64,000 nt of DNA from Bacteroidota bacterium (GTDB taxonomy: Bacteria; Bacteroidota; Bacteroidia; Chitinophagales; Chitinophagaceae), in NCBI GenBank assembly GCA_030706685.1, contig JAUZOA010000012.1, positions 1 through 64,000 of the forward strand, given 5' to 3'. A program made the translations under genes and the position numbers. Within the stretch, counting starts at the first letter, position 1. Each line of letters begins with the position of its first letter. Positions 49,799 to 63,043 of this stretch are shown piece after piece. The notes beneath the pieces were generated by a model. The model was not told where the DNA came from, made no database searches, and was given only the letters and a program-made list of their open reading frames with translations.

Positions 49799-51121
49799 AT
49801 GCAGATTGTACAACAAATTTTATTCGTCCTCCTGGGCGGAACAGCTACCTGGTTCTTTGTTAAAAAAGTAAAAGAGATCCGCCGCAATATCAACCTGGGA
49901 CGTGATGAATCATTCAGCGATAATAAACCTCAGCGATGGAAAAACCTGCTACTCCTGGCTTTGGGGCAAAAAAAAATGTTCCGCAACCCATTAGTGGCCG
50001 TACTCCATTTCTTTGTATATGCAGGTTTTATCATCATCAATATCGAAGTGCTGGAAATAGTGCTCGATGGCATACTCGGAACACATCGCCTGTTTGCCGG
50101 GATGCCCGGCCCGCTGTATATATTTCTCATCAATGCCTTTGAGGTGCTCGCAGTCCTCGTGATCCTCGGCTGCGCCGTTTTTCTTATCCGCAGAAACATC
50201 ATTAAGTTAAAAAGATTTATCAGCAAGGACCTCGATGGATGGCCAAGAAGCGATGCCAATTATATACTGATAACCGAGATCATTTTAATGCTGCTATTCC
50301 TGACCCTGGATGCCAGTGATACATTGCTGCAAACAAGAGGCGCTGAACATTATTCACAGCATTTAACCGGCGATTTTATTTTTTCGCAATACCTGCATCC
50401 CCTGTTGAACAATATGGGCAACCACGGACTAATGACCATTGAAAGAATTTGCTGGTGGTTTCATATCGCCGGTATTTTTGCTTTCCTGAATTACCTGCCT
50501 TATTCAAAACACCTGCACATCATTCTTGCATTCCCCAATACCTATTATGCAAGACTTGAGCCTTTGGGCGAAATGGAAAACATGCCTTCTGTACAAAAAG
50601 AAGTACTGTATGCCATGCAACCGGAATTGGCTCCAGCCGGTGAAGCAGAACCTGCGAAGAAATTTGGCGCAAAAGATATTGCCGATCTCAGTTGGAAAAA
50701 TTTGATGGATGCCTACAGTTGCACAGAATGCGGAAGATGCACGGCCGCCTGTCCGGCTAATATTACGGGCAAGTTGCTGTCACCCCGGAAAATCATGATG
50801 GACACAAGAGACCGGATGGAAGAGATCGGTAAGAACATGAACAGCCATGGTGAATATAAAGACGACGGCAAAAGCTTATTGCATGATTATATTTCTGTAG
50901 AAGAATTGCGTGCCTGCACCACCTGCAATGCCTGTGTGCAAGAGTGCCCTGTCAGCATAAATCCACTGGATATCATTTTGCAATTACGCCGTTACCTGGT
51001 GATGGAAGAAAGCAACAGCCCGCAGGAATGGGCGGCTATGTTTGGCAACGTAGAGAATAATTTTGCTCCCTGGAAATTCAGCCCCGATGAAAGGGACAAA
51101 TGGACCAGCGAAATCAACTGA
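49799..51121 (+). CDS. Membrane (Fe-S)-binding oxidoreductase subunit
   Basis: 440 aa. The first 230 residues have about five membrane segments (NarI/DsrM-like) with His in HFFVYAGF and WWFHIAGIF that could hold haem. The C-terminal part carries two [4Fe-4S] motifs: Cys308/311/314/318 (SCTECGRCTAACP) and Cys373/376/379/383 (ACTTCNACVQECP). In related bacteria the next gene usually encodes a heterodisulfide-reductase-B-like (CCG-domain) partner; here the convergent hydrogenase-like operon follows instead. Probably a quinone-linked electron carrier. Confidence 0.87.
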   Translation: MQIVQQILFVLLGGTATWFFVKKVKEIRRNINLGRDESFSDNKPQRWKNLLLLALGQKKMFRNPLVAVLHFFVYAGFIIINIEVLEIVLDGILGTHRLFAGMPGPLYIFLINAFEVLAVLVILGCAVFLIRRNIIKLKRFISKDLDGWPRSDANYILITEIILMLLFLTLDASDTLLQTRGAEHYSQHLTGDFIFSQYLHPLLNNMGNHGLMTIERICWWFHIAGIFAFLNYLPYSKHLHIILAFPNTYYARLEPLGEMENMPSVQKEVLYAMQPELAPAGEAEPAKKFGAKDIADLSWKNLMDAYSCTECGRCTAACPANITGKLLSPRKIMMDTRDRMEEIGKNMNSHGEYKDDGKSLLHDYISVEELRACTTCNACVQECPVSINPLDIILQLRRYLVMEESNSPQEWAAMFGNVENNFAPWKFSPDERDKWTSEIN

Positions 51122-51189: not shown

Positions 51190-51942
51190 TTACTTTCTTT
51201 TTTTTATCAATTCAAGTAAGCCGTTGATAAAGGTCAGCGGGTGAATCGGGTTGCCGGGCACATACAAATCAATTGCATATTTTGATAAAAAACTCCTGTT
51301 TAAAGCAAGGCTTCCCTCAAATATTCCGCCACTGATGGCATCGGTCCCGGCAAGGATGATGATTTTGGGTTCCGGTATGGCGTCATAACATAGTTGCAGG
51401 GGCTCGGCCATATTTTCAGTTATAGGGCCTGTTATTACAATGCCATCCGCATGACGCGGTGAAGCTACAAATTCAATCCCAAAACGACCCATATCAAAGT
51501 TTACATTGCCACAGGCATTTAGTTCAAGTTCGCAGCTATTATCGCCACCGGCCGATACCTCTCTCAGCTTTAATGAGCCGCTGAAATATTCAGAAATTTC
51601 TTTTCTTATCAGTTCAGGGTTCAGTTGAACAGGTTCATAACGCTTTTCCCTTATGATAAGATTATTACGGTCGTTTGTCGCGATCTTATAATCGGTCGTA
51701 AATTTTATTTTATGAGGAAAAGCAAAAGCGCATTCACCGCAAAACGTACATTTTCCTAAATCGATACAAACCGGGTTAGCCGAGATGGCATTTGTCGGGC
51801 ATATTTCCATCAGTTCATTTTCATTAATTTTTTCTGTACTGATAACAGGTTTGCCCCTGAAAATGCCGGGAACTTTTGCTTTCGTTACATCAGGAATGTA
51901 TTGTTTCCCCTGGTGTAAGAGTATTTTCAGATTGTCTAACAT
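51190..51942 (-). CDS. Hydrogenase/complex I small subunit (NuoB-like) with N-terminal ferredoxin domain
   Basis: 250 aa. The ferredoxin part (residues 40-80) has Cys65/68/71 and Cys48, enough for one [4Fe-4S] cluster; the other cluster's ligands are missing (Phe75 replaces its last cysteine). The NuoB-like part (120-250) keeps FVASPRHADGIVITGPIT and the fold, but aligned N2-cluster ligands are Asp134, Cys137, Ala202 and Asn231 (PGNP for PGCP). So only one of four remains. Electron transfer to the large subunit by the usual route seems impossible. Last gene of the operon, 16 bases after the large-subunit gene. Confidence 0.85.
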   Translation of the reverse strand: MLDNLKILLHQGKQYIPDVTKAKVPGIFRGKPVISTEKINENELMEICPTNAISANPVCIDLGKCTFCGECAFAFPHKIKFTTDYKIATNDRNNLIIREKRYEPVQLNPELIRKEISEYFSGSLKLREVSAGGDNSCELELNACGNVNFDMGRFGIEFVASPRHADGIVITGPITENMAEPLQLCYDAIPEPKIIILAGTDAISGGIFEGSLALNRSFLSKYAIDLYVPGNPIHPLTFINGLLELIKKRK

Positions 51943-51958
51943 TTTTAATCAGTTTTAT

Positions 51959-53458
51959 TTACAAATCGTGACCACAATAAGACAAGTCAAAACTTTTATT
52001 GCAAATCGGAAAATCAGAGATTTCATTGTTCCGCACTGACAACGCCACAGCCAGCCAATTGTGGAAGGAAGGATCTTTGACCTTATAGTGAATTAATTCC
52101 CCCGTGTCACCTGTAATAGCGCAATGACAAATTTCGCCTCTCCATCCTTCTACCAAAGAAATGGCAAATGATCCGCGGGATAAACCCGCTAATTGGCCAG
52201 GCCGATGCACATTTTTTGACAGGCTTTGAATAAGCTCCCTTATGTATTCAATGGACTGGTTGATCTCTTTTTTTCGCATACGCCCCCTTGAATGAACATC
52301 GCCATGATTTTTTATCAACGGCTGATGTTGCAATTCGGGGTATAAATCATGAGGATGAGAAGAACGGATATCCCTGTTAATCGCGCTCATCCTGGCAGAC
52401 ATACCTACTGTTCCAATTATTGCTGCCTGTTCGGTGGTAATAACGCCGGTTTTTTCAAATCGGGCCAATGCGCTGGGCAAACTGAATAGTTCTTCCGATA
52501 TCTCTTCAAAATCCCGTTCGTACTCATCAAATAACCGCGTTAATTCCTCCGCTAGTTCATGGGTAAACGGGAAATTTGTTTTACCCGGACGCATTAATCC
52601 CTTTGCCAGCCGGTTACCACACCAAATCTGAAAGTAGTTTATTACCGGGGTCCTTAATCTTCCATAAACAGCGCTCCCTAATTGATAAGCTATATCAGTA
52701 CACATTGCGCTTAAGTCGCCTGTGTGTACAGCGACCCTCTCCAATTCCAAAGCCAGCGTCCTGCCTAATTGTAAATCTCTTCCCGGTTGAAAATTGCACA
52801 AGCTTTCCCAAAGGTTTACAAACGCTACAGTATGCCCGGCTACTGAATCTCCCGCGATATTTTCTGCCAATGTAACCCGTTGAAGCAATTTTTCCTTTTG
52901 GATAAATAATTGCTCAATGCCCCTGTGCTGGTAACCCAATTGTATTTCAAGATGAAGTATTTGTTCCCCGTTACAAATGAAACGAAAATGCCCGGGTTCA
53001 ATGATCCCGGCATGTATGGGCCCCACGCCTACTTCATGCAATTCTTCACTTTCAATTTTAAAAAATGGGTAACCCGCAATCGTACTGTCTTTAGCAGCGC
53101 GGTTAAATGGAAAACGAACCGGTTTGAGCCAGGGATGATCGACGTAATTTATGCCGAAGTTTTCATGTATCTCCCTTTCAAATTTTTCAAATACAAGCTT
53201 GTGTTTTGAAAAAGAAGGCAATGACTGTTTGACATCTACCACTGATGATGAGATATTTATCGAATGTTGTTCGTCATCGGCAATACAGCAAATAAGCCTG
53301 ATCTTACCCCCATGCGGGAATCCGAAATAGTTTACACAATGAGATGCCCCTCCTTTTAATAAAGAGAAAACATTTTGCTCCAGGAACAAAGAGTACTCCA
53401 GTTCCGGGATGGAATGGACAGGAATGGCCTGGTTATTTCTTATGCTTATATAATTCAT
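51959..53458 (-). CDS. Hydrogenase/complex I large subunit (HyfG/NuoCD-like) without NiFe ligands
   Basis: 499 aa from the ATG at 53458, one base after the upstream stop; an open extension to 53503 overlaps that gene and is not needed. The N-terminal 110 residues are NuoC-like; the rest is NuoD/HyfG-like (HLEIQLGYQHRGIEQLF). The first CxxC is replaced by Ala202/Ser205 in ENIAGDSVAGH, and the C-terminal DPCxxC by Ser493/Gly496 in SFDLSYCGHDL. No Ni-Fe site can form. Related complexes without these cysteines are known as Ehr. Confidence 0.85.
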   Translation of the reverse strand: MNYISIRNNQAIPVHSIPELEYSLFLEQNVFSLLKGGASHCVNYFGFPHGGKIRLICCIADDEQHSINISSSVVDVKQSLPSFSKHKLVFEKFEREIHENFGINYVDHPWLKPVRFPFNRAAKDSTIAGYPFFKIESEELHEVGVGPIHAGIIEPGHFRFICNGEQILHLEIQLGYQHRGIEQLFIQKEKLLQRVTLAENIAGDSVAGHTVAFVNLWESLCNFQPGRDLQLGRTLALELERVAVHTGDLSAMCTDIAYQLGSAVYGRLRTPVINYFQIWCGNRLAKGLMRPGKTNFPFTHELAEELTRLFDEYERDFEEISEELFSLPSALARFEKTGVITTEQAAIIGTVGMSARMSAINRDIRSSHPHDLYPELQHQPLIKNHGDVHSRGRMRKKEINQSIEYIRELIQSLSKNVHRPGQLAGLSRGSFAISLVEGWRGEICHCAITGDTGELIHYKVKDPSFHNWLAVALSVRNNEISDFPICNKSFDLSYCGHDL

Positions 53459-53459
53459 A

Positions 53460-54887
53460 TCAATGAGGCAGGTTTTTAATGGCTCCCTGGATAAGGTTGA
53501 CAAATTCCTGTGGCGGGTTCAGCCCCAGGTAAACAACTAATCCAAGTAAAATAAATTGAGACATGGACTCGGCCGGGTTTATCTTTTCAATACCATCTTC
53601 CTTAAAATCAATAGCCGGGGAAAATAAAAGTTTGAAAACATTTTTTCCAAAAGCCCAGATGATAACTGTCAACAACAGCATTACGATAACCAGCACCGCC
53701 AGGTAATTGGATTCAAATAAAGAGCGGAAGATCATAAACTCGCTGATGAATAAGCCCGATGGCGGCATGGCAGTGGCGGAAAAGAAAGCCAGTAGTATTA
53801 CGATTGAACCCGTAAGATTATATTTAAAATAGTTGCCCACATCATAAATACTTTTGCTTTTGTAAATACGGTATACCTGACCCATCTGAAAGAAAAGACT
53901 GGATTTAACAAAAGCATGAAACACAACATGCAAAATGGCTGCATAATAACCTATTCCCCCGGCGACAATTCCCAGCATAACGATCCCCATGTGTTCTATG
54001 CTGGAATAAGCAAACATTCTTTTTATGTTTTTCACTTTTGTCATATAAACAGTTGCCACAAAAATGGAGAGGATGGCTGCCACCAGGATGACATGACTGG
54101 CCCAGCTATGAACGGGTGAATTGGCAATAACCGCATAAAACCGGAAAATAGCCACAAACCCAACGTTCATCAAAACGCTGGAAAGTAAAGCCCCGGCCGG
54201 GGATGGCGCTTTGTCTTTCGCATCAATACCGGCCGTGTACATAGGAACCAATCCCAGTTTAGCCGTAAAGCCGGTGAATATAAAAATGAAAGCCAGCCGC
54301 AACCAAAATAAGTTCAGTTCAGGCGCTTTCTTTAGTAATACGGCAAACGAAAGATCGTCTGCGCCGGCTTTCTGCAATGTGAAGCTTAAAAATAATATTC
54401 CGATAAACACAAGTGTAATACTGATGGCGCAAACAAAAACATATTTCCAGGTGCCTTCCAGCGAACGGTTATTCCTGCGGTGATAAATGAGAGCGGAAGC
54501 GCTAAGCGTTGTTAATTCAACAAAAATCCAGGTAACAGCAATATGGTTGGAAAGATAAGCGGCGCTGATAGCTGTCAACAATGCCACCGTAGCAGCAAAA
54601 TAGATGGCCCTGTGCCGCGGGTTATCTTTGTTTTTCGAAAGAAAAATATTGCTGTGGTACATAGCAGGAATACTGATAATGGTCAAAGTGATCAGCAGCA
54701 GGACAGCCAATGAATCGGCAGTAAAATAATTCAGTTCAGTGCGGTTGAGATGCAAATACTCATATACAGTAAAGCTGATCTGCAAAAGCAGGAAAAGGCA
54801 AACAAGCAGATCATTCAACATCTTCTTCCTGTTAAAAAATAACAAGCCACTTATGGCAAATGCACCGGCTAAATATATCCCTGTCAT
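53460..54887 (-). CDS. HyfF/NuoN-like antiporter subunit
   Basis: 475 aa with about 14 membrane segments. The proton-pathway residues are present: Glu124 (WIFVELTTLSA) and Lys210 (FTAKLGLVPMYTAG). It also has the central FAYSSIEHMGIVMLG motif of the antiporter fold. It lies 17 bases after the HyfE-like gene and one base before the large subunit gene. It should move protons or sodium in the membrane arm. Confidence 0.88.
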   Translation of the reverse strand: MTGIYLAGAFAISGLLFFNRKKMLNDLLVCLFLLLQISFTVYEYLHLNRTELNYFTADSLAVLLLITLTIISIPAMYHSNIFLSKNKDNPRHRAIYFAATVALLTAISAAYLSNHIAVTWIFVELTTLSASALIYHRRNNRSLEGTWKYVFVCAISITLVFIGILFLSFTLQKAGADDLSFAVLLKKAPELNLFWLRLAFIFIFTGFTAKLGLVPMYTAGIDAKDKAPSPAGALLSSVLMNVGFVAIFRFYAVIANSPVHSWASHVILVAAILSIFVATVYMTKVKNIKRMFAYSSIEHMGIVMLGIVAGGIGYYAAILHVVFHAFVKSSLFFQMGQVYRIYKSKSIYDVGNYFKYNLTGSIVILLAFFSATAMPPSGLFISEFMIFRSLFESNYLAVLVIVMLLLTVIIWAFGKNVFKLLFSPAIDFKEDGIEKINPAESMSQFILLGLVVYLGLNPPQEFVNLIQGAIKNLPH

Positions 54888-54904
54888 CTTTTTATGGTTG
54901 GTTG

Positions 54905-55534
54905 TTAATCCTTTAAATTTCTTAGCTGATCTACATCAACATCTTTTAATACATCCCCGATCCTGTTTACGAAAATTCCTAACAAAAAAACACTGGCAAA
55001 AATATCCAGCAGGATACCCAGGTTTACGAGCATGGGCATTTCGTTACCTACGGCCAGTGATAAAATAAAAACTCCGTTCTCGATGACCAGGTAGCCCATC
55101 ACATGAGTAATAATTTTATTCCTGGTTACGATGATGTACAAGCCCGTAAATAATGTTGAAAGCGCCACGACAAAATATATCTTGCTTATTCGTGAATCGG
55201 CAATAGCATTGGACAAAATAAAAGTGGTAATGATGATAACAGTAATGATGATGAGCGAAATAAAATTGGGCAAAAAAGGTTCCGCGTCACGGGTAATCCT
55301 GTTTCGCTTCATCACATAATTCAAAAACAGCGGTATAGCAAGCGTTTTAAAAACAACAGTTTCCAGGAGAACAAAAGCAAGGTTGACCGCGTTGATCTGG
55401 ATAAGTTCAATAAAAGCAATACCGAATAACAATATCCCCTGGAATGCCAGTATTTTAATATAAGTAAGCAGGCGGTGCGCTATACCGAGATAAAGCAGTG
55501 TTATCGTAAAAGTAATCAGCAATACATTCGTCAT
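54905..55534 (-). CDS. HyfE-like membrane subunit (NuoK-containing)
   Basis: 209 aa with six to seven membrane segments. The C-terminal half (YLVIENGVFILSLAVGNEMP) matches the NuoK-like part of HyfE, including the conserved glutamate in IENG. 24 bases after the HyfC-like gene. It links the antiporter subunits to the peripheral arm. Confidence 0.82.
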   Translation of the reverse strand: MTNVLLITFTITLLYLGIAHRLLTYIKILAFQGILLFGIAFIELIQINAVNLAFVLLETVVFKTLAIPLFLNYVMKRNRITRDAEPFLPNFISLIIITVIIITTFILSNAIADSRISKIYFVVALSTLFTGLYIIVTRNKIITHVMGYLVIENGVFILSLAVGNEMPMLVNLGILLDIFASVFLLGIFVNRIGDVLKDVDVDQLRNLKD

Positions 55535-55558
55535 GATATTATTTATTTAACTTTCCCG

Positions 55559-56464
55559 TTAATTAAATTGCCCTAAAACCAGTAATACTCCCAGGAAAAT
55601 CAGTAATGAGACCGAAGACAAGGCCAGGATATACTGGGCATTATGATTCATCCGGAACCTTGCGGTAAAAGATTCAAGCAATCCAATGGCTATGGCAAAC
55701 AGTACCTGGATACCAAAGAAAATAGGAATAGTAATGTACAAGGGAAAACTACCCATGAATAGGTTGGCAATTAATGCACCATACATGGCAAATTTCAGGT
55801 TAGTGCCATATACTATCAATCCCAGGTCAAACCCGCTGTTATCGAGGATCATTACTTCATGAACCATGGTGAGTTCCAGGTGAGTTTTAGGATCATCGAT
55901 AGGCATACGGCTGTTTTCAACCATCGTAATCATCGCCAAAACAAATGTCGCCAATACGCCAAGTATATAAGAAATATAAGAGCCGAAATGCAGCGAAGCA
56001 AAAATTTCCTGGAAAGAAGTGTGACCAGTAAGAAGTGCCAAAGAGCCCATCAGGATAAAAAAGGCAGGCTCAGCAAACATGGAAAACAAAGCTTCCCGGC
56101 TCGCACCCATTCCCTCAAAACTGCTGCCGGTATCCAATGCGGAGATAATGCTGAAGAATTTTCCTACTCCCAGCAAATAGGCAAAAAACACAAAATCTCC
56201 TTCGAAAGAGATAAATCCCCTGTATTCGCCAAGAGGAATGACCATAATGGCCATAAGGATGGAAGCAAAATATATACTTGGGGCAACCTGGAAAACAAAG
56301 CTGGTCGTTTTACTGTATACCGCTCCTTTTTTAAACAGCCGGATTACATCCTTCACCGGCTGAAGAATACCCGGACCCCGGCGGCCCGAAGTAATACTCT
56401 TGACCCGGATAATAATACCTGTAAAAAAAAGACTCGCGAGAATAATTAAAATGAAACTTATCAT
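55559..56464 (-). CDS. HyfC/NuoH-like membrane subunit
   Basis: 301 aa with about eight membrane segments. Signature segments are SGRRGPGILQPVKDVIRLFK and ENSRMPIDDPKTHLELTMVH (with E after), which in complex I and group 4 hydrogenases line the quinone or coupling channel next to the large subunit. It is one base after the HyfB-like gene. Conserved charges are intact, unlike the peripheral redox sites. Confidence 0.88.
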   Translation of the reverse strand: MISFILIILASLFFTGIIIRVKSITSGRRGPGILQPVKDVIRLFKKGAVYSKTTSFVFQVAPSIYFASILMAIMVIPLGEYRGFISFEGDFVFFAYLLGVGKFFSIISALDTGSSFEGMGASREALFSMFAEPAFFILMGSLALLTGHTSFQEIFASLHFGSYISYILGVLATFVLAMITMVENSRMPIDDPKTHLELTMVHEVMILDNSGFDLGLIVYGTNLKFAMYGALIANLFMGSFPLYITIPIFFGIQVLFAIAIGLLESFTARFRMNHNAQYILALSSVSLLIFLGVLLVLGQFN

Positions 56465-56465
56465 T

Positions 56466-58493
56466 TTACAGCTTATTTAAAAAATTCAACAATGATTTTA
56501 TGTATTCAAATGCAAAGGGAATCCCCAGCACAAGTGTTATAAAAACTAATCCATAAAGTATATAAAACTGCATGTTCCCGTTTTGTAAAAAAGTAAACCG
56601 GTTAAAGAATTTTTTTAACTGCTGCAAAGGGTAATCAATCAGCCACTCTTCCGTTTTATCATACGGATGGGTTTCCTGCCCGCCTGCTGCCGGGAATACT
56701 CCCTGTATTTCTTTTTTCTTCTTGCGAATGGAAAGAACGGGCTCTGCTAACTTGCGATAGGCACGGATAAACGAACTGGCAGTATACTGCATTTTTTCAG
56801 TAGCCCCGGTATACCCGCAGCCCCATGTAGCATTGACAGGCTGAGGTTTTCTCATAGTGACCCGGCTTTTTATCAAATAGATCAGCCCGGCCAATAACAG
56901 GAAACCGGCTGAACAAATTCCTATCATGAATAAGGCTTCCGCAGCGGGTAATTTACCGGGTTGAAAATTATTACCGGGATTGTAAATGAATAAACCAATG
57001 GGCTTTGAAAGGGCCATCATAAAGCCTTTGGGGAACAAACCGATGGCTGCTATCAAAACCACTACTGCATACATGGGTATTAATTTTCCCCAAACAGCTT
57101 CGCCAGGCAGGTGATGAAAATTATGACGGGGTATGCCGAGAAAAATAGTACCCGTGGCCTTGGTAAAACAAAGAAGGGCGAGGCCTCCTATAAGAGCCAA
57201 CCCGAAAAGGCCAAAAACAATAAATGAAACTAAAGTCTTATCCCCCCCATGAAGACCTGTAAACATTCCATTATAAATAAGGAATTCAGAAATAAACCCA
57301 TTGAATGGCGGAAGACCGCAAATAGCCAGCGAACCAATAAGAAAGAGTATGGCGGTATGTGGCATTCGTTTACTTAATCCTCCAAGTTTTTCTATATCCA
57401 TAGTGTGGGTAGCCTGGTATACATTGCCCGCCCCATAAAATAAAAGCGATTTAAAAAGCGAATGATTTAATGTGTGCAGCAGCGCTCCGGCAAATCCAAG
57501 AACAATCAGCAGGTTGTTCCCCTGCCCCATTCCTATACATCCAAGACCGATCCCCATACCGATGATCCCGATATTTTCGATACTATGATAGGCCAGTAAT
57601 CTTTTCAGGTTGTGCTGGACAATGGCAAGCATCACCCCATAAATCCCGGATAGTAAAGAAATAATTAAAATAACATACCCGATTACCAGGTAATCGCTCC
57701 TGATCAGCAGGAGCATCCGCAGTATACCATAAATACCGATTTTGATAATTACTCCCGACATGATGCCGGATATATGTGAAGGCGCCGCCGGGTGCGCATA
57801 AGGCAACCAGGTATGAAAAGGGACAAACCCCGCTTTAATGGCAAAGCCAACGAAGAAACACATAAATAAAGCAATGCCGGTAAGCAAGGAATTAGAGGCT
57901 GAGAAAAGAGCGATGGCTTTAAAATCATAAGAGTTCATCTTCAACGCTACCCAGATAAAACCCAGGGTAAGAAACATGATGCAGACATGTGATTGGATCA
58001 AAAAATTTATTCCTGCATTTATTGTCTCCATTTTCCGGTGTTCAAAAATGATGAGTATAAAAGAAGTCAGTGCCATCACCTCCCAGGCAATAAGAAATGC
58101 AATACTGTTTTGAAGCACACAAATGCCAAGTAAGCCCGCCTGCAGAAGCATAAAACTGATGCAATGCAGCGACAGGTTAGCCCTTTGTGACCTGTAGGGT
58201 TTCATATACTGCAACCCGTAAAAAGCCCCGGTGATAAAAGTGAAGTTGATCACTAAAATAAACCAGCCCGATAGCGCATCAAACCGTACCGGTATCTTGC
58301 CCGTTACCAATGACCCGCGAAATAAATACTCTGAATCTTGCCCTGCCAGCGCCTTAAGCGCCGGTATACTGCTGAGCAATGCAACAATGACAACCCCCAT
58401 TACAGTAATTATTCCTTTCCATTGCACGTTTACAAACGGAATAAACGCAACCGTGAAAAAAACAATTACTATAAATGCCGCAATAATTGTCAT
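56466..58493 (-). CDS. HyfB/NuoL-like antiporter subunit, copy 2
   Basis: 675 aa, about 14-16 membrane segments plus a C-terminal soluble tail. Proton-pathway residues are Glu138 (AWEVMALTSF), Lys220 (AIKAGFVPFHTWLP) and Lys251 (IIKIGIYGI). The HyfB-specific WGCGY segment occurs near residue 580. Its start overlaps the stop of the preceding gene by one base (TGATG), so translation is coupled. Paralogue of the gene upstream. Confidence 0.88.
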   Translation of the reverse strand: MTIIAAFIVIVFFTVAFIPFVNVQWKGIITVMGVVIVALLSSIPALKALAGQDSEYLFRGSLVTGKIPVRFDALSGWFILVINFTFITGAFYGLQYMKPYRSQRANLSLHCISFMLLQAGLLGICVLQNSIAFLIAWEVMALTSFILIIFEHRKMETINAGINFLIQSHVCIMFLTLGFIWVALKMNSYDFKAIALFSASNSLLTGIALFMCFFVGFAIKAGFVPFHTWLPYAHPAAPSHISGIMSGVIIKIGIYGILRMLLLIRSDYLVIGYVILIISLLSGIYGVMLAIVQHNLKRLLAYHSIENIGIIGMGIGLGCIGMGQGNNLLIVLGFAGALLHTLNHSLFKSLLFYGAGNVYQATHTMDIEKLGGLSKRMPHTAILFLIGSLAICGLPPFNGFISEFLIYNGMFTGLHGGDKTLVSFIVFGLFGLALIGGLALLCFTKATGTIFLGIPRHNFHHLPGEAVWGKLIPMYAVVVLIAAIGLFPKGFMMALSKPIGLFIYNPGNNFQPGKLPAAEALFMIGICSAGFLLLAGLIYLIKSRVTMRKPQPVNATWGCGYTGATEKMQYTASSFIRAYRKLAEPVLSIRKKKKEIQGVFPAAGGQETHPYDKTEEWLIDYPLQQLKKFFNRFTFLQNGNMQFYILYGLVFITLVLGIPFAFEYIKSLLNFLNKL

Positions 58494-60493
58494 CAGATGA
58501 ATTTAAAAATCGTACCCAAGAATATCAGCACAATAAAAAAAATGCCATACAGGATATACATCTGGATTTTGCCGTTTTGGATGAACTGGAAATAATTCAG
58601 GGAGTAAAGAAGCCTGTCAACAATGCCATCAAAAATCCTCGTTACAAAAAAATCATTGTAATGAGATGAATGCCTTCTTTCTGCCGGGAATATTTCATTG
58701 GCGGAAATCTCTTTATACTTCTTTTTTTCAAGGATAAGAAAACTCAGCAACTTTCCCAATGATTTTGAATAGGATTTACCGGTGTACTGCATCTTTGATG
58801 TAGGCACTATATACCCGCATCCCCAGGTTGGGCCCGTCGCTTCCGGGTGTTTACGTGAAATGCTTTTCCTGATAAGGTAGATCAAAACAAGTAACACCAT
58901 AAACAACATAGCGAACTTTCCAATGGCAGATATACCGTTAAGCAATGGAAAGGGAACGGGCGCCCTTCCCCCCGGAGCTACCGGAATAAATTCAAGCACA
59001 ATGTTATTTACGATGGAAAAATAAAACCGGGGAAACAGGCTGATAGAAAGCATGATGATCACCACGAGATATTGCGGCAACCGCATATCCCAGGCAACTT
59101 CCCGGGGTTGCTGTTGCAAATGAGTTCTGGGTGCACCAAGAAATATCGTCCCAAAGCTCTTGGTAAAAGTAAGCATCGAAATTCCCCCTGCCAGGGCTAG
59201 CCCTGCCAGCGAAAATATCAACAAGGTTATCAATGTTATGCCCGTTGACTTAATACCCAGTAACAGGCCGCTATATAAAAGGAATTCTGAAACAAACCCG
59301 TTAAAAGGAGGCAGTCCCCCGATAGCCATGCCCCCAATAAGGAAAAACAAAGCTGTTTGTGGCATAGTATTCACCAGCCCCCCAAGTTTTTCCATATCGC
59401 GGGTATGCGTCTGCTGGTACACAGAACCGGCATTAAAGAAAAGAAGAGATTTATAGAGTGAATGGTTTAAAGTATGTAACAGGGCTCCTGCAAATCCCAA
59501 AACCGCCAACAAAGTATTTCCATTCCCCATTCCTAATAATCCAAGCCCGATACCTATCCCGATAATCCCGATATTTTCAATAGTACAATAGGCGAGCATT
59601 TTTTTAACATCCCGGTGTACTGCTGCATTCAAAATGCCATACAGGCATGTAAGCACAGAAAGAGTAATGATGATTTCACCAATAACGGTATAATCCTGCT
59701 TAAGAAAAAAAATGATCCTGAATATTCCATAGATACCCAGCTTAACAATAACGCCCGACATAATTCCAGAAATATGCGAAGGCGCTGCCGGGTGCGCCTG
59801 TGGCAACCATGAATGTAAAGGGATAAAACCGGCTTTAATGCCAAAGCCGGCAAAAAATAAAAGGAACAACCATAGATTTTGATTGGAAAAGAAGAATTTT
59901 TCAATGGATGAAAACTCAAATGAGCCTTCTGAAAAATAAACCCAGATAAATGCAGCAGCCAGGAAAAGAACCCCGATATGCATTTGTACCAGGTAATTGA
60001 TCCCTGCCTGCAAGGTGGCTTTATTGGAATGATCAAAGATGACAAGAAGAAAAGAGGAAAGGGACATCAATTCCCATACCACCAGGAACGCCAGCCCGTT
60101 TTGCATCATACACACCCAGAGCATAGATGATTGAAAAAGTAAAAACAAGATCCAGTGCATGGAAAGATCAGTCCTTCGCCCCTTATACGATTTCATATAC
60201 CCGATCCCATAAAAAGCGCCATGAATACAGGTTAAATTGATGATGAGGATAAACCAGGAAGACAGGCTGTCTATATGAAAGGTGATATTGCCAAATACAA
60301 GAGTCCCGTTGATAACAACATCCACTGTATCCCCGGTTAATGCTTTAACAGCAGGAATAGACGTTATCGCGGCAATCAGTACTACAAAAATAAAATTGAC
60401 ATTCGCCCTTATTGAAGACGGCAGGAATGGGATTGCAATCATTCCGGTGACGGGTAATAATAAGGCAAAAGAAAGCAACAAAGAGTCCGTCAT
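58493..60493 (-). CDS. HyfB/NuoL-like antiporter subunit, copy 1
   Basis: 666 aa with about 14-16 membrane segments. Glu141 (VVWELMSLSSF), Lys220 (GIKAGFIPLHSWLP) and Lys251 (IVKLGIYGI) match copy 2 position for position. The WGCGY motif (PTWGCGYIVPTSKMQYTG) is also present. First membrane subunit of the operon, 96 bases after a small gene; that gap shows a TAACTTTA-like box but no firm promoter. Confidence 0.88.
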   Translation of the reverse strand: MTDSLLLSFALLLPVTGMIAIPFLPSSIRANVNFIFVVLIAAITSIPAVKALTGDTVDVVINGTLVFGNITFHIDSLSSWFILIINLTCIHGAFYGIGYMKSYKGRRTDLSMHWILFLLFQSSMLWVCMMQNGLAFLVVWELMSLSSFLLVIFDHSNKATLQAGINYLVQMHIGVLFLAAAFIWVYFSEGSFEFSSIEKFFFSNQNLWLFLLFFAGFGIKAGFIPLHSWLPQAHPAAPSHISGIMSGVIVKLGIYGIFRIIFFLKQDYTVIGEIIITLSVLTCLYGILNAAVHRDVKKMLAYCTIENIGIIGIGIGLGLLGMGNGNTLLAVLGFAGALLHTLNHSLYKSLLFFNAGSVYQQTHTRDMEKLGGLVNTMPQTALFFLIGGMAIGGLPPFNGFVSEFLLYSGLLLGIKSTGITLITLLIFSLAGLALAGGISMLTFTKSFGTIFLGAPRTHLQQQPREVAWDMRLPQYLVVIIMLSISLFPRFYFSIVNNIVLEFIPVAPGGRAPVPFPLLNGISAIGKFAMLFMVLLVLIYLIRKSISRKHPEATGPTWGCGYIVPTSKMQYTGKSYSKSLGKLLSFLILEKKKYKEISANEIFPAERRHSSHYNDFFVTRIFDGIVDRLLYSLNYFQFIQNGKIQMYILYGIFFIVLIFLGTIFKFI

Positions 60494-60589
60494 AGATATC
60501 TGGTATAAAAATTACGTTCATCCGCCCGGCAGTCACCCATTGTCAACCTCTATAAAGTTATGTATATCTTTCAATTCCTCTTCCTCCTG

Positions 60590-60886
60590 TTATTCCACTT
60601 TCTCCCGGTTAGCATTCATTTGTCTTAAATAATTCAGGCCATGCCGGATATTACGTTTCCTGGGTGAATCGATATTTTGCTCTGAAAGTTTTTTTAACTC
60701 GCTTTGCAATATGTGCAGGTAAATAATAACCAGGTACCTGAAAAGATCATTTTCGGGAAATTGTTCAACAGAACGGTTGATGATCTGCTCGACTTCATAC
60801 TCATCAACTGCTTTTTCCAACTCATGAAGAACCGTCTCTTTGTATTCTTCAATCATCATAAATTTGCGTTTCAATTCATATATCAA
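60590..60886 (-). CDS. Small helical protein, operon member (98 aa)
   Basis: 98 aa, largely helical and charged (VLHELEKAVDEYEVEQIINR). No signal peptide, cysteine or named domain. It overlaps the next upstream gene by 11 bases, so it is translated with it. An alternative ATG at 60859 (MMIEEYKETVL) is also plausible. Probably an accessory or assembly factor for the membrane complex (inference from position only). Confidence 0.7.
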   Translation of the reverse strand: MIYELKRKFMMIEEYKETVLHELEKAVDEYEVEQIINRSVEQFPENDLFRYLVIIYLHILQSELKKLSEQNIDSPRKRNIRHGLNYLRQMNANREKVE

Positions 60887-61181
60887 TAGTCTTCATCCAG
60901 CTTTTCCAATAGGGCATCTTCAAAAGAGTGTCCACGAAACCTGCGGCGTACCGGTAGTTAGTATGATCAGCATTGCCCTGGCTTGTTTCTAACGCGTTAG
61001 TTAACCAGGCCGAAAGTTTTTTCAGGTACAGGATGATGTTTTCGTCTGTCAAATCATGGTCAAGCAACTTCCTGACATTACTTATTATTATCTTTTCACA
61101 ATCTAAATACCCTTCCACATGCTTTAGCCGGCCGGTGATTTCGGTTGTCTCCAGATCAAAATCAATGAACATATATTCCAA
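60876..61181 (-). CDS. Small helical protein, operon member (101 aa)
   Basis: 101 aa, helical, with one cysteine (DCEKIIISNVRKLLDHDLTD). Not recognised. It ends inside the start of the 98-aa gene and begins 14 bases after the methyltransferase gene. Soluble; possibly a partner of the 98-aa protein. Confidence 0.7.
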   Translation of the reverse strand: MEYMFIDFDLETTEITGRLKHVEGYLDCEKIIISNVRKLLDHDLTDENIILYLKKLSAWLTNALETSQGNADHTNYRYAAGFVDTLLKMPYWKSWMKTIDI

Positions 61182-61195
61182 TCTCCTTTATTAAA

Positions 61196-61855
61196 TTATA
61201 TTTTAACCCAAAATTTCAGCACATTACTCATTTCCTCGCCCACGATATGATACCCCGGCGGAATTTCGTCTTCAAGGCTATGATAAGTCACCAGCCGGGT
61301 GCCGTCCGGCATTTGCTCCAGTTGTTTGTATAAATAACGGCAGTAATAATTATACAGTTCGCCGGAATAATCGATGCTGTCATCAATTTTGTCCGTACCG
61401 GCTAAATTCTCATAAAACGCATTGAAAAAATAGAAATGGTGATAATTCTTAAAATCTAACTGGGTGAAATTCCCGTGAATAAAAGAAACGTTTTCCAGGT
61501 GAAGCAGTTCCTTTGCGGTTTCTGCATGCCTGATCAGGCTTTTCCTTTGTTCAATACCATAATAAAATGCCCCAGGTTTATAATAGGATGCACCCAGGCA
61601 AAACTTTCCGACACCGCTGCCGATATCCAAAATTCTTACATTGTCTTCAGCAGCTAAAAAATCGGCTGCTTTTTGCGCAACGTGTAATGGCGTCCAGTGC
61701 CGGTGGGTTAATCCCTGTATGGGCAAAGGATAAAGCTGGTCAAAATGTTCATCTGAAGCAAACCACTTTTCTGCCAGCATTCCTTTTCCGGGCAAAGACA
61801 CAAGATTTTTCCTGTATATTCCCCTGTCGTTATTTTGCATATTTATCTTTGCCAT
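61196..61855 (-). CDS. SAM-dependent methyltransferase, operon member
   Basis: 219 aa (a second ATG at 61840 would give 214). SAM-binding motif ILDIGSGVGKFCLGA, acidic YYGIEQRKSLI, and a later FYFFNAFYENL motif IV. It overlaps the GcvH-like gene upstream by 11-26 bases, so the two are coupled. Its target could be the complex itself or the GcvH-like protein; nothing in the sequence decides this. Confidence 0.85.
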   Translation of the reverse strand: MAKINMQNNDRGIYRKNLVSLPGKGMLAEKWFASDEHFDQLYPLPIQGLTHRHWTPLHVAQKAADFLAAEDNVRILDIGSGVGKFCLGASYYKPGAFYYGIEQRKSLIRHAETAKELLHLENVSFIHGNFTQLDFKNYHHFYFFNAFYENLAGTDKIDDSIDYSGELYNYYCRYLYKQLEQMPDGTRLVTYHSLEDEIPPGYHIVGEEMSNVLKFWVKI

Positions 61856-62237
61856 TCATCTGGTATTGTTTGGGCAGCAGAAGGTCTTTTCGCTCATAAG
61901 GCTGTGACGGAACAATCTTTGCAATCCAACCACTGCTTTCAGCGTAGCGCAACAAATTATTTGAATTGCCCGGTAGTAATGTATCATTCACCTGTACTAC
62001 TTTCCCGTCAACCGGCATATGCGCTTCCACCTGGTAATCGTTATACAGGATCGTGGCAATCACATCACCCCGCTTCTTAAAGCCGGAGGGTTCATTAAAC
62101 GTTACCTGGTGAATTTCTTTGAACCCCAGAAGCTTAAAACTGCAAACTCCTACAAAAGCAACAGTACCCTGGAAATCAATCCACTCATGGTCGTTGGTGT
62201 AATAGAGGTCTTTTTTTGATAATTTTTCGTTATTCAT
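61830..62237 (-). CDS. GcvH-like protein without lipoyl lysine
   Basis: 135 aa. The glycine-cleavage H-protein fold is clear: YYTNDHEWIDFQGTVAFVGV at the start and HMPVDGKVVQVNDTL for the second half of the hammerhead. At the position of the lipoylated lysine (ESVKA in true GcvH) the sequence reads NDYQV, with Asp67 aligned to that lysine. So it cannot carry lipoate in the known way. First gene of the hydrogenase-like operon; its start is four bases after a TAGCTTTG box. Confidence 0.85.
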   Translation of the reverse strand: MNNEKLSKKDLYYTNDHEWIDFQGTVAFVGVCSFKLLGFKEIHQVTFNEPSGFKKRGDVIATILYNDYQVEAHMPVDGKVVQVNDTLLPGNSNNLLRYAESSGWIAKIVPSQPYERKDLLLPKQYQMNGKDKYAK

Positions 62238-62249: not shown

Positions 62250-62278
62250 TTCCGCCTTTAACCGCGGCACGGTAAATC

Positions 62279-62309
62279 TTATCAATTGAAAAAGTGAATT
62301 TTATCAATT
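62279..62309. promoter_or_regulatory. Candidate operator: direct repeat TTATCAATT x2
   Basis: TTATCAATT at 62279-62287 and 62301-62309, start-to-start distance 22 bases (two helical turns), between the divergent hydrogenase-like operon and the Crp/Fnr gene. Plausible binding site for that regulator; not a textbook FNR box. Confidence 0.4.
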
Positions 62310-62335: not shown

Positions 62336-63043
62336 ATGAGTATAAAGGGCATTTTTCCTATCGATAAATGGGATTTTAAAAGCGAATCCATATTGACGGA
62401 TTTACCATCCGATGACTTTGAGTTGCTGACAGCTAATAAAACAGAACAGGTTTATAAAAAAGGAGAAATCATTTTCAGGGAGGGGGCTTACCCGTCTGGT
62501 ATATTTTATATTATAGAAGGCAAAGTAAAAAAATACAAATTAGATAAAGACGGAGGAGAACATATTATTTATGTAGCTAACACCGGCGAACTATTCGGTT
62601 ATCATGCCATACTTGCAGAGGACCGTTACCCCGACTCAGCCGCTGCAATAGAAGAAAGCAGGGTCGCGTTTGTGCCAAAAGAAGATTTTTTAGAAACATT
62701 GGAACAGTCAGAAGTATTAAGCAAGCGGTTACTAAAAACACTGAGCCATGAATTTGCCGTATTGGCCAATAGCCTGACAATGTTTGCCCAAAAATCTGTC
62801 AGGGAAAGATTGGCTCTTCAATTAATCGTGCTTCGTGAAAAATACAAAGTGAATTTCCACCCCGGTATGTCCGTTGAGATTAATATGAGTCGCAATGACC
62901 TGGCCAGCCTGGTAGGAACGGGAAGGGAAAATGTCGTAAGAATCCTGACCGAATTTAAAGAAGAAGGTATCCTGGAAACAAAAGGCAGGAAAATAATTGT
63001 GCATGATATTAATAAGCTTATTGCTATTACAAATTATAAATAA
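62336..63043 (+). CDS. Crp/Fnr-family transcriptional regulator
   Basis: 235 aa from the ATG at 62336 (MSIKGIFPIDKWDF); a GTG at 62294 is open but would overlap the promoter region. Cyclic-nucleotide-type sensor domain (YKKGEIIFREGAYPSGIFYI) and a C-terminal winged helix with the FNR-type recognition helix SRNDLASLVGTGRENVVRIL. The protein has no cysteine at all, so it cannot sense oxygen by an Fe-S cluster. It is divergent from the hydrogenase-like operon and likely controls it. Confidence 0.88.
   Translation: MSIKGIFPIDKWDFKSESILTDLPSDDFELLTANKTEQVYKKGEIIFREGAYPSGIFYIIEGKVKKYKLDKDGGEHIIYVANTGELFGYHAILAEDRYPDSAAAIEESRVAFVPKEDFLETLEQSEVLSKRLLKTLSHEFAVLANSLTMFAQKSVRERLALQLIVLREKYKVNFHPGMSVEINMSRNDLASLVGTGRENVVRILTEFKEEGILETKGRKIIVHDINKLIAITNYK

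Follow-up and report, generated by a model that had tools for sequence, protein, structure and literature searches.

Gene content of the operon

The 64,000-nucleotide stretch analyzed here (positions 1 to 64,000 of contig JAUZOA010000012.1, GenBank assembly GCA_030706685.1, from a Bacteroidota bacterium of the family Chitinophagaceae; hereafter the window) contains an operon predicted to encode a membrane complex related to group 4 [NiFe] hydrogenases and complex I. In the open reading frame (ORF) list of the window, the operon comprises 11 ORFs, all contiguous on the minus strand from 62237 to 51190. In this order, they were predicted to encode a GcvH-like protein (135 amino acids [aa]; 61830..62237), a class I methyltransferase (219 aa; 61196..61855), two small proteins without a family match over the cut-off (sp1, about 98 aa, 60876..61172; sp2, 89 aa, 60590..60859), two HyfB-like antiporter-type subunits (subunit 1, 666 aa, 58493..60493; subunit 2, 675 aa, 56466..58493), a HyfC/NuoH-like subunit (301 aa; 55559..56464), a HyfE-like subunit (209 aa; 54905..55534), a HyfF-like antiporter-type subunit (475 aa; 53460..54887), a HyfG/NuoCD-like large subunit (499 aa; 51959..53458), and a HyfI/NuoB-like small subunit with a fused N-terminal ferredoxin domain (250 aa; 51190..51942). 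Family matches underlay these assignments, joined by alignment for the first HyfB-like, HyfC/NuoH-like, HyfF-like, and small subunits; the large subunit was assigned by alignment to HycE of Escherichia coli and by comparison with a second copy. An earlier note, made from the DNA letters alone, had described 11 contiguous genes of these families on one strand, and the ORFs and family matches agreed with it. ATG 53458 is the probable start of the large subunit, in preference to TTG 53503, as the second copy of the complex in this genome starts at that point; sp1 probably begins at ATG 61172.

The operon product is best explained as a predicted Ehr-type complex with seven subunits, belonging to a clade made up mainly of Bacteroidota. 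As described in PMC10284858 and PMC6349859, Ehr complexes are related to group 4 hydrogenases and are marked by a large subunit without NiFe-binding residues. The complex of the window shares the absence of NiFe ligands and combines antiporter-like subunits with a HyfC/NuoH-like subunit in one operon. Ehr complexes without NiFe ligands have reportedly been described by Marreiros and colleagues, and the ligands of the proximal [4Fe-4S] cluster are not known to be a formal part of the Ehr definition.

All six kinds of core gene (hyfB, hyfC, hyfE, hyfF, large, and small) were present at 68 of 98 loci, with one or two hyfB genes per operon. Most of the other 30 loci were cut by a contig end; at L056, L096, L102, L106, L118, and L122, one core gene was not found on a contig that was apparently long enough. 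The second copy in the window genome (L021) fills a 7-kb contig and ends inside the small subunit. Its subunits were 73 to 92% identical to those of the window (78% for the large subunit), and its five complete genes were open. The same genome also carries a complex I region (L022) and one further NuoD-like gene (L049).

Metal sites and membrane arm across relatives

Relatives were collected by a scan of named genomes in which only the best 80 of 574 confirmed matches were kept, so frequencies in this sample are not those of nature. The four proximal-cluster ligands could be scored in 86 aligned rows, being replaced in 46 (lost rows) and intact in 40 (intact rows); 11 further rows, in which the small subunit was absent or truncated, were not scored. 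Locus L125, which is the same locus as L037, was dropped from the tree and the counts (L037 was omitted from neighbor clustering), and the near-identical rows L043/L044 and L078/L103 were retained in the counts. A second sample comprised relatives of the clade member G448, and its loci L154 and L165 represent genomes already present as L058 and L062.

When the small subunit was aligned to HycG, MbhJ, and NuoB, the cluster-cysteine positions were occupied by D134 (codon 51541..51543; all codons here are on the minus strand), C137, D201 (51340..51342), and N231 (51250..51252), in line with the earlier proposal that three of the four proximal-cluster ligands are absent. Among the 46 lost rows, position 1 was D in 44 (E and A in one each), position 2 was C in 35 and otherwise mixed, position 3 was D in 42 (E in three and H in one), and position 4 was N in 44 (A and S in one each). 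D134, D201, and N231 recurred in 29 of 29 small subunits of the second sample, two of them from genomes already counted. Because the replacement is conserved across a clade, it is not due to chance. An AlphaFold2 model of the small subunit alone had a predicted local distance difference test score (pLDDT) of 92.4; its nearest solved folds were 7z0s_G (HycG) and 6cfw_J (MbhJ), and NuoB folds also matched. Rebuilding of the proximal cluster by cysteines elsewhere was considered and seems unlikely from the alignments: C137 varies, and the two candidate cysteines, C253 and C444, lie in the large subunit beside residues of the old active site.

In the ferredoxin domain, C48, C65, C68, and C71 (51730..51801), which align as a kept [4Fe-4S] ligand set, were present in 46 of 46 lost rows, 39 of 40 intact rows, and 29 of 29 small subunits of the second sample; the earlier note had not mentioned this set. 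The pairing of cysteines with clusters in this domain presumably follows that of 2[4Fe-4S] ferredoxins. The ligand set of the second ferredoxin cluster was incomplete in the window and, by eye, seemed whole only in L087 among the lost rows.

In the large subunit, the NiFe cysteine positions, located by alignment to the solved E. coli HycE, are A202, S205, S493, and G496, as expected from the earlier observation that all four NiFe cysteines are missing. S493 and G496 were invariant in 86 of 86 rows, and thus no row has the NiFe cysteine set. Residue numbers and roles (proton path, canopy Arg, and E-channel) follow E. coli HycE as given in PMC9474812; the numbers of HycE chain I are 12 above those of that source, an inferred offset that fits its Cys531, Asp529, Arg478, and Glu437.

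Two cysteines of the large subunit separated lost from intact rows. C253 (52700..52702), two residues ahead of D255, was present in 45 of 46 lost versus 1 of 40 intact rows (30/30 in the second sample), and C444 (52127..52129), four residues past the canopy Arg and adjoining H445, was present in 44 of 46 lost versus 3 of 40 intact rows (28/29 in the second sample). The two occurred together in 43 of 46 lost rows and in none of the 40 intact rows. H40, R290, R362, and E479 also separated the two states, but the intact row L033 already has all four. Cavity residues were shared across the states: the canopy Arg (R440) and E398 were invariant in 86 of 86 rows, 43 of the 46 lost rows and 39 of the 40 intact rows had H at position 245, and every one of the 86 rows had a basic residue, R or K, at position 356 (42 R and 4 K among the lost rows). 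D255 we take to match a quinone-site Asp of complex I. The earlier proposal that the complex seems to have lost its redox chemistry is too strong, because the small subunits of the lost state, wherever they could be scored, retain one [4Fe-4S] ligand set (46/46 and 29/29). As judged from these residues, the redox function appears to be cut, and its loss is not proven.

The membrane arm retained its charged residues, as had been noted earlier for E141, K220, and K251 of the first HyfB-like subunit and for the ion-moving arm generally. HyfB residues E141, K220, K251, E306, H340, and K348 were invariant in all 85 rows assignable to a group (48 of 48 lost rows), as were HyfC residues E124, E132, E183, E197, and E203, which include the kept E-channel acids, in 66 of 66 rows (34 of 34 lost rows) and HyfF residues E124, E144, K148, K210, R290, and K328 in 76 of 76 rows. 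Position 193 of HyfC differed: of 34 lost rows, 28 had K and 3 had R, whereas K occurred in 1 of 32 intact rows. HyfF H78 also separated lost from intact rows.

Ratios of nonsynonymous to synonymous substitution rates (dN/dS) between the two copies in the window genome were 0.025 to 0.094 for five of the six subunits, the small subunit being represented by its first 115 codons only; for the large subunit, synonymous sites were saturated in this comparison. In the comparison with L052, 425 codons of the large subunit gave 0.057 and the complete small subunit gave 0.045. All of these ratios are rough, because synonymous distances were high throughout. Our reading is that the complex is probably maintained. 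The absence of both catalytic-side metal sites together with an intact ion-moving arm is supported, as a conserved state of the whole clade.

In a midpoint-rooted tree of 97 large subunits, built by a quick search without NiFe hydrogenase rows, the 46 lost rows, the 11 unscorable rows, and the intact L033 fell in one clade with a Shimodaira-Hasegawa-like approximate likelihood ratio test (SH-aLRT) support of 99. L033 forms a line at the base of this clade, keeps the proximal cluster, and is missing both C253 and C444. With the unscorable rows omitted, the lost or intact state required two changes on the tree, and the starred branches force only one, for the intact group. The proximal cluster was likely lost once, on the basis of this tree, which two losses would also fit. 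Lost rows were labelled Bacteroidota except L086 (Phycisphaerae, on a short contig) and L088 (labelled only bacterium). In the phylum sample, 17 of 395 genomes, including that of the window, had a match at an E value of 1e-30 or better. In a search of 59 relatives, a set that includes the window genome, the best match in any other genome had an E value of 5.6e-27 at 25% identity, comparable to NuoD-type proteins. A scan of viral contigs with the small subunit gave eight stretches that fit a pattern, none of which encoded a relative.

The nearest isolate outside the clade among the loci compared, Geobacter argillaceus (L126), has the same hyfB-C-E-F-large-small order, lacks NiFe ligands, and is 42% identical; we take it to be the Geobacter Ehr named in the literature. 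All four proximal cysteines are present in L126, as in the 39 further intact rows, whereas the clade of the window has D/x/D/N together with C253/C444. E. coli formate hydrogenlyase-1 (HycCDEFG; 7z0s) is the best solved homolog of the large subunit and HyfC and the second best of HyfB. HycG is the best fold match of the small subunit, and the canopy Arg and proton path of HycE are shared with the large subunit; the NiFe cysteines of HycE and the proximal cluster of HycG have no counterpart in the window complex. More generally, the two CxxC motifs that bind NiFe in group 4 [NiFe] hydrogenases are absent from the large subunit of the window. Of complex I, homologs of NuoB, NuoD, NuoH, and the antiporter-type subunits are encoded in the operon, but the NuoB ligands of cluster N2 are missing from the small subunit. 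The NADH module (NuoE/F/G) had no match among the 11 operon proteins, the genome not having been searched for a detached module.

Neighboring genes and the divergent promoter

A regulator of the CRP/FNR type is encoded divergently from the complex in the window (62336..63043, plus strand, start set by comparison with relatives) and at L053, L058, L184, L185, and L186. Identity to the regulator of the window was 44 to 84% across nine relatives compared, with one remote at 20%. In FNR, cysteines hold an oxygen-sensing [4Fe-4S] cluster; the product of 62336-63043 contains no cysteine and so has no FNR-type cluster ligands. The divergent promoter of the window contains two CRP/FNR-type boxes 22 base pairs (bp) apart (62273..62306), recognized by promoter comparison, of which that at 62295-62306 is a strict TGA-N6-TCA and that at 62273-62284 is a degenerate TGA-N6-TTA. 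Two strict TGA-N6-TCA boxes exactly 22 bp apart were found in 6 of 10 regulator promoters (L058, L184 to L186, L139, and L143), although the chance estimate for such pairs is crude; the promoters of L058 and L184 to L186 belong to similar regulators, and L184 to L186 are near relatives. One strict and one degenerate box with equal 22-bp spacing occurred in the window and at L053 (second box of L053 by eye), and one strict box each occurred at L142 and L145.

The earlier note had presented the four genes ahead of hyfB in the window as part of the unusual make-up of the complex and had named a lack of their conservation with it in other genomes as a refuting observation. Comparison of operon layout across Bacteroidota showed such a lack, and this part of the proposal fails. 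Of the lost-state loci, 28 had 1.5 kb or more of DNA upstream of hyfB, and the arrangement crp, gcvH-like, methyltransferase, and sp1 was present there at only two of these 28, namely, the window and a Ferruginibacter metagenome-assembled genome (L053), in which the sp1 homolog is 36% identical. At L058, crp alone lies upstream of hyfB. The methyltransferase and sp1 were not found in 16 other phylum-sample genomes carrying the complex, and sp2 had no homolog among the loci compared, whole genomes not having been searched. The view that clade Ehr operons generally carry the four accessory genes was dropped on these counts. The methyltransferase occurred in 9 of 394 other phylum-sample genomes, none of them among the genomes of that sample with an Ehr match. 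In four of these nine, the same type of CRP regulator lay near the gene (L139, L142, and L143, and further away in L145), and in two the gene lay beside SulP (L141 and L142). At L145 (1686-6623), the CRP regulator is followed by PEPCK, GcvH, GcvT, and GcvH-like genes between the regulator and the methyltransferase. The GcvH-like protein has Asp in the window and at L053 where the true GcvH of L145 has Lys, presumably the lipoyl site; with Asp at this column, the product of 61830-62237 is missing the lipoyl-lysine of the glycine cleavage H protein.

SulP genes were found beside, inside, or one gene from the Ehr operon at L033, L037 (= L125), L039, L041, L042, L045, L047, L081, L092, L093, and L124, a tally made at Ehr loci alone. 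SulP lies past the CRP gene at L184 to L186 and is remote at L131. A SulP-STAS-EIIA fusion is encoded between the large and small subunit genes at L047 (6939-9137), and a family of 435 to 454 aa without a Pfam match accompanies SulP beside Ehr operons at L033 (1797-3101), L081 (8794-10140), and L093 (13996-15357). A carbonic-anhydrase-like gene at L081 fell below the Pfam cut-off.

At the genome level, SulP was present in 7 of 22 lost-state genomes versus 347 of 395 genomes of the phylum sample, a contrast unmatched for taxonomy or completeness. The 22 genomes are a chosen subset (20 loci, the window genome, and G066); the intact G156 was not counted, and L082 was not in the carbonic anhydrase search. 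Among 101 relatives, the one set in which taxonomy was tested as a cause of the depletion, SulP was present less often with the complex, in 9 of 31 genomes versus 49 of 70 without it (Fisher test, P = 1.8e-4, relatedness uncorrected); in this count, G536 (33% match) was scored as without the complex and the partial matches G479 and G541 as with it. Within the family of the window, 12 of 13 other sampled genomes had a SulP match (one weak), and the window genome had neither SulP nor DabA (PF10070). DabA was neither clearly depleted nor enriched, with 29 of 395 genomes in the phylum sample and 3 of 20 clade genomes.

In six of the seven lost-state genomes with SulP, the gene lay within about 1.2 kb of a Pro_CA match, and a Ferruginibacter genome has DabA, Pro_CA, SulP, and Pro_CA on one stretch. 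A bicarbonate role for SulP is therefore favored there, with sulfate also possible. A beta-carbonic anhydrase scored over the cut-off in 11 of the 22 clade genomes searched, with one in that of the window. Taken as evidence on inorganic carbon, this count gave no support either way and was set aside.

Further genes were observed around Ehr operons. Convergent with the operon of the window, a plus-strand ORF (49799-51121) encodes a protein of 440 aa, judged HdrC-like by eye, that has hydrophobic stretches and two iron-sulfur motifs of the CxxCxxC type; it had no homolog among the Ehr loci compared. A protein with HTH_17 and PTS_EIIA_2 domains is encoded before hyfB or divergently from it at intact-cluster loci L034-L045, L097, L115, L121, L123-L126, and others, 18 loci forming one cluster.

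Possible functions of the complex

The explanation that we prefer, and hold tentatively as a whole, is that the complex is a non-redox, ion-coupled machine, possibly for inorganic carbon. By the usual route, electrons would not arrive in the old active-site cavity fast enough to be useful, since at the usual cluster spacings of complex I the gap left without the proximal cluster would be too long for rapid electron transfer. A redox-inert site, either a hard metal ion or a hydrogen-bonded acid pair, would fill the space of the missing cluster, and the retained [4Fe-4S] cluster would serve a structural purpose or act as a sensor. The cavity would still exchange protons with the membrane arm, and the ion gradient would be coupled to non-redox acid-base or transport chemistry there. 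A cavity beyond electron reach whose proton route to the membrane is kept points to such a machine, and we regard these two steps, the cut electron route and non-redox ion coupling, as probable. The substrate would be dissolved inorganic carbon (CO2/HCO3-), with the complex working like DAB2/MpsAB without being a member; by association, through SulP near Ehr operons and its lower frequency in genomes with the complex, this is the best candidate, and a doubtful one.

According to PMC13144422, DAB2 is a redox-free, complex-I-like CO2 hydratase coupled to the proton motive force (PMF), so that such non-redox coupling, on that account, exists in nature. An antiporter-type membrane subunit is common to DAB2/MpsAB and the complex of the window, and the C-x-D and Cys/His letters of the NuoD-like large subunit recall, as letters alone, the Zn(Cys2His)/Asp set of DabA2 described in PMC13144422. 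DAB/MpsAB systems have DabA (PF10070), whereas the window genome has none. A more specific possibility is a PMF-driven carbonic anhydrase, in which C253, C444, and H445 would bind zinc, D255 and R440 would form the Asp/Arg pair, and the arm would drive vectorial CO2 hydration. We consider this very improbable; if true, it would be a further independent origin beside DAB and the CO2 pumps that are included among cyanobacterial NDH-1 complexes.

Several observations weigh against a non-redox machine for inorganic carbon. Every lost-state row that could be scored retains the [4Fe-4S] ligand set, an oddity if the machine has no redox role. SulP could transport sulfate rather than bicarbonate, and none lies at the locus of the window. 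The depletion of SulP is a correlation among related drafts of uncertain completeness, in a sample centred on a complex-bearing genome. Nor is a need for another CO2 system shown, because half of the searched clade genomes (11/22) already have a beta-carbonic anhydrase. The clade loci with SulP directly downstream (L081, L092, and L093) have G at position 255, and L092 and L093 are each without one of C253 and C444, whereas the genomes of L184 to L186, with SulP nearby, keep C253, D255, and C444. The proposal that SulP-adjacent members lack the new motif is thus true of the former three loci and false for the latter three, and the motif does not track SulP cleanly.

Other explanations account for parts of the same evidence. 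The complex could be a redox pump by a new route, with electrons passing from ferredoxin to the kept [4Fe-4S] cluster, then to a metal at the Asp/Asp/Asn site or a C253/C444 dithiol/disulfide, and on to some acceptor. The universal retention of C48, C65, C68, and C71 in lost-state rows (46/46 and 29/29) and the appearance of the cysteine pair along with cluster loss speak for such a route. Against it, C137 is variable (C in 35 of 46 rows), so that the old site is unlikely to bind a cluster through thiolates. Among the listed neighbors of the operon, most of them unannotated, no gene for an electron donor was recognized, and the complex I spacings given above would leave the same long gap; we see this route as possible at a low probability. 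A Mrp-like Na+/H+ antiporter for pH or sodium homeostasis, in which the peripheral arm would be a mere scaffold or gate, would suit the full conservation of key HyfB and HyfF residues, the HTH/PTS-EIIA protein of many intact-cluster Ehr operons, and the KdpA gene adjoining L033. The subunits of the window matched the general antiporter-type family. The invariance of cavity residues R440 and E398, like the joint shift of C253, C444, and HyfC position 193, is more than a scaffold needs, so that this role seems rather unlikely.

That the GcvH-like protein, the methyltransferase, and the two small proteins are parts or dedicated partners that set the chemistry of the complex draws on the order crp, gcvH-like, methyltransferase, sp1, and complex common to the window and the Ferruginibacter locus. 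With this order at 2 of 28 lost-state loci only, the methyltransferase and sp1 not found in the 16 other Ehr genomes, the methyltransferase in 9 of 394 other genomes that are all outside the set with an Ehr match, and a GcvH-like protein without the lysine, such a partnership is improbable. A decaying, non-functional hydrogenase relic would be expected to show losses such as those of three of the four cluster ligands and all four NiFe ligands, but clade members conserve the replacements, each of the five genes that are complete in the second copy has an open frame, and dN/dS values are low, which leaves decay scarcely credible.

No description of an Ehr complex without the proximal cluster was recognized among the papers listed in open-access literature searches. 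Against those papers, a proximal-cluster loss conserved throughout a clade of complex I relatives would be new, Ehr complexes without NiFe ligands being already known. It has long been asked how complex I links the chemistry of the peripheral arm to ion movement, and the clade would offer a widespread natural version in which the coupling path was kept and the last cluster removed, evolution having separated the two. Apparent isolates fall within the clade (Arcticibacter eurypsychrophilus MJ9-5 and Ancylomarina sp.), and the complex would show what non-redox work such a peripheral arm can do.

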